NCBI GenBank assembly: GCA_021159235.1
Contig: JAGGSF010000113.1
Coordinates: 1 to 12,035, forward strand
Length of the DNA: 12,035 bases
Reading direction: 5' to 3'
From: Deltaproteobacteria bacterium
GTDB lineage: Bacteria; Campylobacterota_A; Desulfurellia; JAGGSF01
Shown here: positions 6,034-11,100 of the stretch, piece after piece
Position numbering within the stretch: position 1 is the first letter of the stretch
How the letters are laid out: each line of letters begins with the position of its first letter
Translations under genes and position numbers: made by a program
Notes under the pieces: generated by a model
Database searches by the model: none
What the model saw: only the letters and a program-made list of their open reading frames with translations
What the model was told of the DNA's origin: nothing

Positions 6034-6744
6034 CTATTTTAATAGCGTTCCTACCTTTTCACCCAGTACAGCTTTCTTCAACACATCCTTTTTATTCATA
6101 TTAAACACAACAATAGGCATGGAATTATCCATACATAGAGATGTAGCTGCAGCGTCTATGAGCTTTAACCCCTTATCTATTACCTGCAGGTAACTGATTG
6201 TATCGTATTTTACTGCATCTTTGTAAATTAAAGGATCCTTGTCGTATATACCATCCACCTTTGTTGCTTTAAATATCACTTCTGCTTTTATCTCTAATGC
6301 TCTCAAGGCTGCTGCTGTATCTGTGGTGAAGTAAGGACTGCCTGTTCCGGCTACAAATATAACAATTCTTTTCTTTTCTAAGTGTCTCAATGCTCTCCTT
6401 CTAATGTAAGGTTCTGCTATTTCTCTCATTTCTATGGCAGACATAATCCGGGTTTGGAGGGAGAGTTTTTCCAGTGCATCCTGCAGAGCAAGCCCGTTTA
6501 TTACTGTAGCTAACATGCCCATATAATCTGCCGATGCTCTATCCATACCCTGTGTTGAACCCTTTATTCCACGGAAGATATTTCCTCCGCCAATAACGAT
6601 AGCTATCTGCACCCCTAAGCTCCAGGTATCATAAATATTTCTGGCAATTCTGTTTAGGGTATTAAGATCTATGCCAAATTCACGGGAACCCATCAACGCT
6701 TCTCCGCTTAGTTTAAGCAATATCTTTCTATACTTCAGTTGCAT
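6034..6744 (-). CDS. pyrH: UMP kinase
   Basis: PyrH phosphorylates UMP to UDP with ATP, supplying all pyrimidine nucleotides; bacterial enzymes are hexamers of the amino-acid-kinase fold. The 236 residues include the phosphate-binding KLSGEAL (11-17), GGGNIFRG (52-59), the UMP-site stretch [20 protein letters not shown] (68-87), and [17 protein letters not shown] (133-149). [12 protein letters not shown] (160-171) is the nucleotide-binding loop. All the motifs expected of an active enzyme are present. The start codon shares one base with the tsf stop (TAATG) and is preceded by an AGGAAAGG ribosome site. The rpsB-tsf-pyrH-frr order is one of the most conserved in bacteria and supports the assignment fully. 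Confidence 0.98.
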
Positions 6745-7343
6745 TAAACCTTTCCTACTTCAAAACGAACAAATCTACGTACAGAAACATTCTCTCCCAA
6801 TTTACTAATGTATTGGGCAATATATTCTTTCACCGTTATTGTTTCATCTTTTATAAATGGTTGCTCTAAAAGACATGTTTGTTTAAAATATTTATTTATT
6901 TTCCCTTCTATTATCTTTTCTACTACTTGAGGAGGTTTATTTTCTTTTAGTAATTGTTCTTTATAGAAGGATTTTTCTTTTTCTATTATGTCTTGAGGCA
7001 CATCTTCTATTTTTACATACAGCGGTGACATAGCTGCAACTTGCATGGTAAGATCCTTCAGGAGTGTATTAAATTCATCTGTGTTGGCTACGAAGTCTGT
7101 TTCGCAATTTAGTTCCAGCAGTACACCTACCTTTCCTCCAAAATGTATATAAGACCCTATTTTTCCTTCTTTTGCTATGCGTGATGCCTTTTTCTGTGCC
7201 TCAGCCAAGCCTTTTTCTCTTAATTTGAGGATTGCTTTTTCCATATTTCCCTGTGTTTCTTGAAGCGCTTTTTTACAAGCCATCATACCTGCTCCCGTTA
7301 TATCTCTTAACTGCTTGACTGATTGCGCGGAAATTTCAGCCAT
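6744..7343 (-). CDS. tsf: Translation elongation factor Ts (short form)
   Basis: EF-Ts is the guanine nucleotide exchange factor for EF-Tu. The N-terminal UBA-like domain carries [15 protein letters not shown] (13-27), followed by the core with [12 protein letters not shown] (80-91), whose TDFVAN residues (82-87) insert into EF-Tu and disturb Mg2+ and GDP binding. The protein is 199 residues, much shorter than the 283 of E. coli. It lacks the second core subdomain and the coiled-coil insert, as in Thermus and Thermotoga type EF-Ts. The C-terminus ([16 protein letters not shown], 182-197) is intact, so this is a natural short form and not a truncation. The start overlaps the end of rpsB by 8 nt, with a strong AGGAGG site 6 nt upstream, so the two genes are tightly coupled. 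Confidence 0.98.
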
Positions 7344-8070
7344 TCAACTCCTCCTCTTTTGTTTCCTCTTTTTTTTCTTCTATTTCTTTTTCTATTTTGG
7401 CTTGACCTTCCATGATACATTCTGTGATCTTATCGACAACCAATTTTATTGATCTTATGGCATCATCATTACCGGGGATAACATAGTCTATGGGGTCGGG
7501 ATTACAGTTTGTATCTACTAAAGCTACAATAGGAATATTCAATATATTTGCTTCATGCACTGCCAGTGATTCCCTTTTTACATCAATAACAAACAGAGCC
7601 CCAGGTAATTGTTTCATATTTCTTATGCCTGCAAGATATTTTTCAAGTTTTGCTTTCCTTTTAAGAATTCTCTTTGCCTCTTTTTTCGGTAATTTGTCTA
7701 TTTCCTTTTCCAACTCCTCTAATCTGTTTAGTTTTTCAATACTCTTCTGGATTGTTTTGAAGTTTGTGAGCATTCCTCCTAACCATTTTTCGTTTACATA
7801 TGGCATGTTGCATTTTTCAGCGCACTCTTTTATAGTCTCTTTCCCCTGTTTTTTTGTGCACACAAAAAGGATATCTTTGCCCTGTGCCGCTATCTCTTCT
7901 ACAAACTCACATACTCTCTTAAAGCAATCAATAGTTTTTTGCAAATCTATTATGTGGATTCCTTTACGAGCGGCGAAGATATATGGTTTCATCTGTGGGT
8001 TCCATCGCTTTACCTGATGACCGAAGTGAACACCTGCTTCCAGTAACGCTTTCATTGAAATTGGCGTCAT
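7336..8070 (-). CDS. rpsB: 30S ribosomal protein S2
   Basis: S2 binds the back of the 30S head-body junction and is needed for bS1 or mRNA recruitment. The 244 residues start with the family-typical [16 protein letters not shown] (4-19) and [23 protein letters not shown] (21-43). [16 protein letters not shown] (92-107) follows, then a coiled-coil hairpin of charged residues (about 109-145), and [19 protein letters not shown] (157-175) with [19 protein letters not shown] (186-204). The last 20 residues are a Lys/Glu-rich tail ([17 protein letters not shown]), a common variable extension. The ATG lies 5 nt behind AAGGAGG, and a start here gives the usual S2 N-terminus. It is the first gene of the visible operon, headed by a promoter and a structured leader described separately. 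Confidence 0.99.
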
Positions 8071-8075
8071 AAAAA

Positions 8076-8088
8076 CCTCCTTCAGGAT
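8076..8088 (-). promoter_or_regulatory. Ribosome binding site of rpsB, downstream repeat copy
   Basis: The mRNA-sense AAGGAGG followed by five U residues and the rpsB ATG is a near-perfect Shine-Dalgarno site with optimal spacing. The surrounding 13 nt duplicate the element at 8120-8132. Confidence 0.95.
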
Positions 8089-8095
8089 CTTCCTC

Positions 8096-8142
8096 CGCGC
8101 GGGAACAAGCCTATTTTCGCCTCCTTCAGGATAGCCCGCACG
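8096..8142 (-). other. GC-rich stem-loop in rpsB leader
   Basis: In the mRNA sense CGTGCGGG (8142-8135) pairs with CCCGCGCG (8103-8096): eight consecutive pairs including one U-G wobble, enclosing a 31-nt loop. GC-rich runs like this stand out against the AT-rich surroundings. It is not a terminator: no U tract follows, and a ribosome site and start codon lie directly downstream. The loop contains the upstream copy of the Shine-Dalgarno element. Confidence 0.6.
8120..8132 (-). repeat. Upstream copy of 13-nt direct repeat (decoy Shine-Dalgarno element)
   Basis: ATCCTGAAGGAGG in the mRNA sense is identical to 8076-8088, with a period of 44 nt. It contains a perfect AAGGAGG but no ATG or GTG follows at a usable distance, so it is not an obvious initiation site. 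Confidence 0.85.
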
Positions 8143-8156
8143 TGTGTTTTTTCTTG

Positions 8157-8185
8157 TTTATAGCATAACAGAAGTAATATTACAA
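8157..8185 (-). promoter_or_regulatory. Sigma70-type promoter of the rpsB operon with extended -10
   Basis: In the minus-strand sense, TTGTAA (-35, 8185-8180; 4 of 6 consensus) is followed by 17 nt and TATAAA (-10, 8162-8157; 5 of 6), with TGC directly before it giving an extended -10. The predicted start is the A at about 8150, just upstream of the leader stem. It lies in the only sizeable gap of the window, right after pyc and before the ribosomal-protein operon, where a promoter is expected. Confidence 0.75.
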
Positions 8186-8190
8186 GTAAG

Positions 8191-11100
8191 CTATTCTAAT
8201 TCTATAATCAGATCCCCTGTTTCTATGTTTTCTTTTTCTTTTAAATGTATCTTTTTTACCCTTCCTTCACATTTGGCAACAATTTTTGTTTCCATCTTCA
8301 TTGCCTCTGTAATGGCTACTATATCGCCTTTTTTTACATGTTGACCTTCAATTGCATTGATTCTTATTATCTTTCCGGGCATGGTGGCACATATGTGTTT
8401 TATATTTTCAGGGTCTCCTTTTATGTTTTGCTTTACCAAAACTTCTGTTTTTTTGTCTTTTACCTTTATGGTGCGTTGCGGTCCATTCAATTCAAAGTAT
8501 ACAGTTCTTTCACCCTTTTCATCACATGGCCCCACCGATATAAATCTTATGAATAATTTCTTCCCGGGTTCTATAACTACATTTGTTTCTTCATTATGTT
8601 TTAGTGGATAAAAGAAGTCTTTGGTGCAGAGTTTTGTCACATCTCCATATTCATCGTTAAACTTTATATAATCCTCAAATACATCAGGATAAAGGGCATA
8701 GGAGATAAGCTCGCGGAATTTAAAATCTCTTTTGTACTTTTCTTTTAACTTTTTCCTTGCTTTTTCAAAATCAAATGGAGGGAGTAATTTTCCCGGTCGC
8801 TCATCTATTGGTGTTTCACCTTTTAATACCTTTTTTCTCATGCCTTTGGGCAAGAAACCACCATAAGGTTGTCCCAGTAAGCCTTTATAGAAATCCATTA
8901 CCGATTGAGGCAGAGAAAGTTCATCTGCTCTTTCTTTAAAATCTTCTATACTAAGATTGTTTCTTACCAGGAATAACGCTAAATCACCAACCACTTTTGA
9001 TGATGGTGTAACCTTTATAATATCTCCTAAGGCCCGATTTACCTCGGCATACATCTTTTTTACCTCTTCCCATCTATCTATAAGTCCCAATGCTGTTACC
9101 TGCGGTTTTAGGTTGCTGTATTGACCACCTGGTATTTCATGAGTGTATACCTCTGCCGTTGATGCTTTAAGATCACTTTCAAATGGATAGTAATATGTTC
9201 TTACTCTTTCCCAGTAATCGGATATTTCATCTAATTTTTCTTTATCCAGAGAGCTTTTTCTTCTGGTATGAGCAATGGCACTTACAATGGAATTCATATT
9301 TGGTTGACTGGTCAACCCTGACATAGAACTGATAGCTGCATCTACGATGTCCACTCCTGCTTCGATGGCTAAAAGTATAGCTGCTTCTCCATTGCCGCTG
9401 GTGTCATGGGTGTGAAAGTGAATGGGTTTTTCTACTTCTTGTTTTAGGGTTTTTATAAGTTTTTTTGCGGCATAGGGTTTACATAATCCAGCCATATCTT
9501 TTATACAGATAATGTCTACATCCATTTTTTCCAATTCTTTTGCTAAATCTACATAATACTTTAAATTGTATTTTTCTCTGTTCTTATCCAGAATATCTCC
9601 GGTATAACAGATGGCGGCCTCACATATTTTCCCTTGTTTTTTTACCTCTTCTATGGATATTTTCATTTGTTCTATCCAGTTAAAACAATCAAATATTCTG
9701 AACACATCTATACCGCAGGACGAAGCTTCTTTTATAAATGCTCTAATAACATTGTCGGGATAATTGGAGTATCCTACAGCATTCGATCCCCTTAAAAGCA
9801 TCTGGAACAATATGTTTGGTATTTTTTCTTTTAGCTCTTCTACTCTTTTCCATGGGTCTTCTCTTAAGAATCTATAGCAGACATCGAATGTTGCTCCTCC
9901 CCACATCTCTATTGAAAAGAGCTTCGACATCCAATGGGATGTGGCTTCTCCTACATTTAGCATATCGTGCGTTCTTATGCGGGTAGCTAAGAGTGATTGA
10001 TGTGCATCACGGAATGTAGTATCTGTAAACAGAACCTCATCTGTATTTTTTATCCATTCTATCACTCCCTTTACACCCTTTTCTTCTAAAATATTTCTCG
10101 AACCTTTAGGAACATCCTTGTCTTTTATCTCTATCCTTTTTATTTCTGGCAACACGATATCTTCATTTATCTTTATATCTTCTCTTCCGTTTACTATATT
10201 GTTTCCTAAGAATGAGAGCAGCTTTGTTGCTCGGTCTTTTCCTGCTTCTGGTTTGAGTAATTCAGGATGTCTTTCTATAAATTCTGTACAGAAATACTCC
10301 TCTAAAAAAGCTTTTGATTTTAGCACATTGAGCAGGAAGGGAATATTTGTCTTTACACCTCTTATTCTGAATTCATTCAAAGCTCTTATCATCTTTTTTA
10401 CTGTTTGTTCAAATGTCAGTCCCCATGAGGTTACCTTAACTAACAGTGAATCGTAATAGGGTGTAATGCGTGCGCCGGTGTAAGCTGATCCTCCATCCAA
10501 CCTTATGCCAAATCCAGCTGGTGATCTGTAAGCTTCCAATACTCCTGTATCGGGCATGAAGTTATTTTCCGGGTCCTCTGTTGTAATTCTACACTGAAGT
10601 GCGTACCCTCTTCTTTTTATATTCTCCTGTTTGAGATTGAGTTTTTCCCCATCTAATCTCTCTCCCTCTGCTATGTATATCTGGCAATGGACAATATCAA
10701 TACCTGTAATTCTCTCTGTTACCGTATGTTCTACTTGAATACGGGGATTTGTTTCCAAGAAATAATAGTTGAAGTCTTCATCCATCAAAAATTCAAATGT
10801 ACCTGCATTTACATAATTGGATGCTTTTGCCATCTTTATTGCATCTCTATATAGATTTTGAAGAACACCTTCTGGAATGTTTCTGGCAGGTGCCATTTCC
10901 ATCATCTTTTGATGTCTTCTCTGGATAGAGCAGTCTCTTTCATAGAGGTGAACGACATTTCCATATTTATCTGCTAAGATCTGCACTTCTATGTGTTTGG
11001 GTTTTTCTATGCGCTTTTCAATGAATACATCGGAGTTACCAAAGGCCTTTTCTGCTTCTCTCTTTGCAGATTCAAAATTCTCCAGTAGTTCTCTTTCATT

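Follow-up and report, generated by a model that had tools for sequence, protein, structure and literature searches.

A divergent rpsB-motif leader with a predicted pseudoknot beside the SD sequence in a Desulfurellia-related bacterium

Introduction

Does the short gap upstream of rpsB in a Desulfurellia-related bacterium encode a pseudoknotted RNA operator for ribosomal protein uS2, and if so, is that RNA new? A preliminary description of this DNA proposed that the S2 leader forms an H-type pseudoknot, that its second helix covers the ribosome site, and that it is a candidate new RNA element. The window, by which we mean the whole 12,035-nt stretch analyzed here, is one contig of a 1.13-Mb genome whose closest named relative is a MAG labelled Desulfurellaceae (JAGMDW010000040). 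On its minus strand, a pyruvate carboxylase gene precedes the cluster rpsB-tsf-pyrH-frr-uppS-cdsA-dxr-rseP-ispG, and the leader element lies within the 120-nt gap between the end of pyruvate carboxylase at 8191 and the start of rpsB at 8070. The first gene of the cluster, rpsB (7336–8070, minus strand), stands directly downstream of the element and encodes uS2, as judged by a score of 336 bits to NCBIfam TIGR01011 (cut-off 76.3); its product is up to 72% identical to uS2 of class relatives outside the genus. EF-Ts (6744–7343, minus strand) is short in this genome, at 199 aa, and two stretches of it match the 293-position model.

Leaders of this kind have been described before. The rpsB motif, published in 2009 by Meyer et al., comprises a stem P1 and a J2-3 pseudoknot upstream of rpsB, and allows P2 and P3 to be short or absent; few Epsilonproteobacteria are among the groups listed in that paper (PMC2704228). 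In E. coli, uS2-dependent autogenous repression of rpsB-tsf is established, the RBS is reported to lie outside the S2 operator, and the mechanism of repression is unclear (review PMC10931766). A paper on 20 new ribosomal leaders mentions rpsB only as the gene behind an L13 leader (PMC7247131). The E. coli S15 (rpsO) and S4 (alpha operon) pseudoknots resemble the proposed structure as pseudoknotted ribosomal-protein translational operators near the RBS, but they involve another protein and an unrelated RNA, and the comparison is one of principle only.

Results

We located each part of the proposed structure on the minus strand, and found that the stem, the repeat copies, the 8-nt linker (8095–8088) and the 18-nt middle loop (8121–8104) had all been placed correctly. 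P1 pairs CGTGCGGG (8142–8135) with CCCGCGCG (8103–8096) in 8 bp, one of them T-G, and its pairs have probabilities of 0.90–1.00 in a pseudoknot-free fold. The stem is flanked immediately 5' by a conserved CACA box (8143–8146) and immediately 3' by a conserved GAGG (GWGG) box (8092–8095). The 13-nt sequence ATCCTGAAGGAGG occurs twice, once inside the P1 loop (8132–8120), where it holds the pseudoknot loop strand AGGA (8125–8122), and once 3' of the stem (8088–8076), where it holds both the complementary strand TCCT (8087–8084) and the SD sequence AAGGAGG (8082–8076). Only 1 nt separates this 4-bp core from the SD sequence, which itself stands 5 nt from the start codon (ATG, 8070) and forms a duplex of −13.6 kcal/mol with the anti-SD. 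A genome-wide repeat element was considered and rejected as the source of the repeats: TCCTGAAGGAGG has just three occurrences in the genome, two at this leader.

The stem-repeat arrangement exceeds chance. When the leader was dinucleotide-shuffled 20,000 times, no shuffle contained a 13-nt direct repeat. A descriptor reading CRCA-P1 (at least 7 bp)-loop-P1'-GWGG-pseudoknot (at least 4 bp), which we composed after both the relatives and the window had been seen, matches once on the two strands of the 12-kb window, at the S2 leader, and appears in 0 of 20,000 such shuffles, or in one of 20,000 when P1 is relaxed to at least 6 bp. With P1 of at least 5 bp, the strict descriptor matches 17 of 78 diverse rpsB upstream regions; it has no match among 158 control stretches taken from within these loci, and 4 among 3900 mononucleotide shuffles. 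The layout CRCA-P1-GWGG-pseudoknot also precedes rpsB in Chloroflexi, Chlorobi, Armatimonadetes, Oligoflexia and others (loci L043, L046, L047, L052, L054, L055, L059, L061, L062, L068, L069 and L090), beyond the rpsB-motif list of 2009. The descriptor extends the motif upstream of rpsB to Chloroflexi, Chlorobi, Armatimonadetes and other groups outside that list.

We compared 28 structurally aligned leaders (26 distinct) from the class together with gamma- and alphaproteobacteria, Chloroflexi, Chlorobi, Geobacteraceae and Bdellovibrionales. All 28 share one layout, CA box-P1-loop-P1'-GWGG box-(3–7 nt)-loop complement, which also occurs in Zymogenus and Melioribacteraceae. CA directly precedes P1 in every leader, mostly as CRCA, and the box directly 3' of P1 is GWGG in 26 of the 28 across phyla and GAAG in the other two. 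The pseudoknot 3' strand of the window falls at the conserved position 3–7 nt after this box. The alignment was placed by hand, with P1 fixed by the CA and GWGG boxes on either side of it and not by pairing. Pseudoknot strands follow a MAFFT alignment in the main class family; in distant phyla they were picked by complementarity within 3–7 nt after GWGG, so that those counts lean towards structure. A covariance-model alignment (A2) was left out of the pair counts because it contains spurious rows.

Across the 11 pairs, 96.2% of cells are paired, compared with 64.8% in shuffled and 35–56% in slid alignments, and two-sided changes occur at 11 of 11. The covariation score of 0.915 compares with 0.271 for shuffled alignments and no more than 0.21 for slid ones. 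In agreement with these counts, swapping strands between lineages generally breaks both P1 and the pseudoknot. The absence of covariation in either helix had been named as grounds for refuting the proposal; by both strand swaps and the 28-leader alignment both helices covary, which supports an H-type pseudoknot in the S2 leader and confirms by comparison a structure first spotted from a single sequence. P1 covaries within the genus as well as across phyla: the three species carry CGTGCGGG/CCCGCGCG, CGTGCAGG/CCTGCGCG and CGCGCGGG/CCTGCGCG, in which one position pairs as G-C, A-U and G-U, respectively, and another as U-G or C-G. The core AGGA/UCCU covaries across lineages and is invariant within the genus, so its covariation comes from the other lineages only. 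What is conserved of the second helix is this 4-bp core (8125–8122/8087–8084).

All 25 class genomes compared, including that of the window, carry rpsB, and their leaders keep the same order of elements in almost completely different sequences. In an example from the main class family, P1 is CATTCCC/GGGGATG and the pseudoknot is AAAGGAT/ATCCTTT; in family f4 these are CACTTGCT/AGCAAGTG and ATGGA/TCCAT, and in family f2 CATAAAGTTTT/AAAACTTTATG and GTGAG/CTCAC. In most relatives the loop strand is followed by a P3 hairpin that covaries. At the same place the window has only a weak 4-bp candidate, AGGC (8122–8119)/GCTT (8110–8107) with an 8-nt loop (8107–8122, minus strand), a possible P3 read from the sequence and a weak fold, which lacks covariation within the genus and shares A8122 with the pseudoknot core. 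P2 is absent from the window leader. In the pseudoknot-free fold, TCCT (8087–8084) pairs instead with AGGA (8094–8091), and the resulting local hairpin AGGA-AGA-TCCT (8094–8084) competes for the pseudoknot 3' strand. This hairpin is weakened in the congener G001, where the box reads GAAG, and is thus probably not conserved.

A covariance model built from nine leaders of genus g3, with the window's own genus left out (R1), finds the window leader at 8150–8065 with 13.2 bits (E 0.0023 in 401 nt), in the P1 register derived by hand. When R1 was applied to rpsB loci of other phyla, each of its eight best matches fell immediately before rpsB. At genome scale, R1 did not reach the window's own genus or family f2. 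Among 4227 Rfam families searched with 8050–8200, t44 (RF00127) is the best, on the same strand, at the same place and in the same P1 register, with 15.5 bits (E 0.71) against a gathering cut-off of 44. Rfam searches gave no relevant match in the whole window and no match in the class relatives. The R1 and t44 scores are each weak alone; what counts is that the two agree on place, strand and register.

Three gamma-proteobacterial rpsB leaders served as positive controls, scoring 60–84 bits to t44. They show CACA-P1-GAGG and, beyond it, a strand that complements the loop, and both boxes of the window recur in them and in the t44 consensus (GUG|GAGG). These three are stray records in a phage collection (AFYI01000001, OQ572403 and CAKLQH020000036; L118–L120) that hold bacterial rpsB and are apparently bacterial contigs, either misfiled or contaminated.

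Discussion

Comparison of leaders identifies the window element as a divergent member of the known rpsB motif, neither a t44 match nor a new element. This assignment rests on testable structural features set against the published description, and the CACA and GAGG boxes were compared with gamma leaders and t44. Like the 2009 motif, the element lies upstream of rpsB and has a pseudoknot and a long basal P1 capped by a variable loop region; the motif's definition allows for a short or missing P2 and P3. It differs in having no P2, at most a 4-bp hairpin for P3, a 4-bp core ending in a G-A mismatch where U-A is usual, and a loop strand and SD region that together form a 13-nt direct repeat. With t44, the gamma-proteobacterial rpsB leader that is an S2 operator in E. 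coli, it shares the CACAC-P1-GUGGAGG register, the position before rpsB and a downstream strand complementary to the loop; it scores far below the gathering threshold, however, and lacks the long second stem. The suggestion of a candidate new RNA element therefore does not hold, since the architecture was published in 2009 (PMC2704228), its gamma form is Rfam t44, and S2-dependent repression is known in E. coli (PMC10931766). What is gained is the placement in the rpsB motif of a divergent leader below the Rfam detection limit.

We think it very probable that the element is a cis-regulatory S2 leader of the rpsB motif that represses through a uS2-stabilised pseudoknot beside the SD sequence. 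Comparison among leaders identifies P1, the core of the pseudoknot, and the boxes with their position; the transcription start, uS2 as the ligand and repression by blocking initiation are probable, the S2 part by analogy with E. coli. Transcription probably begins a few bases ahead of CACA (8146). P1 (8142–8135/8103–8096) would fold between the CACA and GAGG boxes, and the loop AGGA (8125–8122) would pair with UCCU (8087–8084) just downstream of P1, ending 1 nt from the SD sequence. uS2 in excess over ribosomes may bind and stabilise this pseudoknot, as happens in E. coli with help from bS1, and the stabilised form would hinder access of the 30S subunit to the adjacent SD; we propose that less rpsB and fewer products of the co-transcribed downstream genes would be made as a result. 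An S1 reading frame in the window's own genome scores 306.7 bits to rpsA, but runs off a contig end.

The proposed start fits a probable sigma-70 promoter that we read from the sequence, TTGTAA (8185–8180) and TATAAA (8162–8157) spaced by 17 nt (8157–8185, minus strand), which may place the mRNA start just upstream of the motif. Class relatives carry a similar TTGTAA...TATATAAA upstream of the leader; a consensus promoter scan did not include the proposed promoter in its list.

The pseudoknot strand is mostly within a few nt of the SD in non-gamma leaders (1 nt in the window), a spacing that favours interference with SD access; in the three gamma leaders the distance is 6–13 nt. The RBS of E. 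coli reportedly does not belong to the operator, so lineages may differ in mechanism, and compact leaders like that of the window make the question of direct occlusion testable. The claim that the second helix covers the ribosome site stands insofar as the core adjoins the SD; its extension (8131–8128/8081–8078) is confined to the genus and does not covary. The two repeats can pair with each other since each is nearly a palindrome: TCCTGAAGGA self-pairs through 4 bp TCCT/AGGA, a tandem G-A/A-G and 4 bp AGGA/TCCT. The full 10-nt helix (8131–8122 with 8087–8078, tandem G-A in the middle) might then be the functional second helix of a genus-specific, SD-burying variant of the rpsB motif. It is the more stable pairing (−11.4 kcal/mol as a duplex, compared with −4.6 for the AGGA/TCCT core by itself), both repeat copies persist in the two congeners, one of which has a single mismatch in its upstream copy, and nearly all class relatives have loop strands without the upstream TCCT. 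Yet the extension lacks covariation, its copies being nearly invariant in three species; the congener G002 has turned the outer U-A into C-A, and elsewhere in the class the pseudoknot merely abuts the SD. We regard this reading as tentative and rather doubtful, and the extension over the SD itself as speculative.

Two further readings do without the pseudoknot. The upstream copy is a perfect SD (AAGGAGG, 8126–8120) with a TTG 11 nt downstream, from which 8 codons run to a TGA within the second repeat, and it could act as a decoy or standby SD that recruits 30S subunits or serves a short ORF (TTG 8108 to the TGA ending at 8082). Other families, however, carry non-SD strands (GTGAG, ATGGA, GGGTT) at the same loop position, matched by complementary 3' strands, so that it is the pairing, not SD character, that is conserved there, and we give this role only a slim chance. 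The leader might also be a simple hairpin with a chance SD-like repeat, devoid of a pseudoknot and of S2-specific regulation, as the stable P1 and local AGGA/TCCT hairpin of the pseudoknot-free fold and the sub-threshold t44 score would allow. This we consider extremely improbable, given a second helix that covaries across families and phyla, a strand position fixed after GWGG, and the failure of 20,000 shuffles to yield either the descriptor or the repeat.

Between the pseudoknot and rpsB, the congeners G001 and G002 carry a ~60-nt insertion (L010:1448–1504 and L011:1445–1504) that is absent from the window. It holds a possible leader peptide (MTQIKDSRLKTSSFWRFL and MTQIKDLRRKNLLFFWRFL) whose TGA overlaps the rpsB ATG, and a hairpin, AAAAACCTC...GAGGTTTTT (−13 to −15 kcal/mol), that would sequester the rpsB SD; the overlap and the hairpin suggest translational coupling of the candidate peptide and rpsB. 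It is conceivable, if unlikely, that the rpsB motif of this genus is an SD-burying switch, built of near-palindromic SD-element copies that form a 10-nt helix with a tandem G-A, and that in the sister species the switch controls the coupled leader peptide and not rpsB directly.
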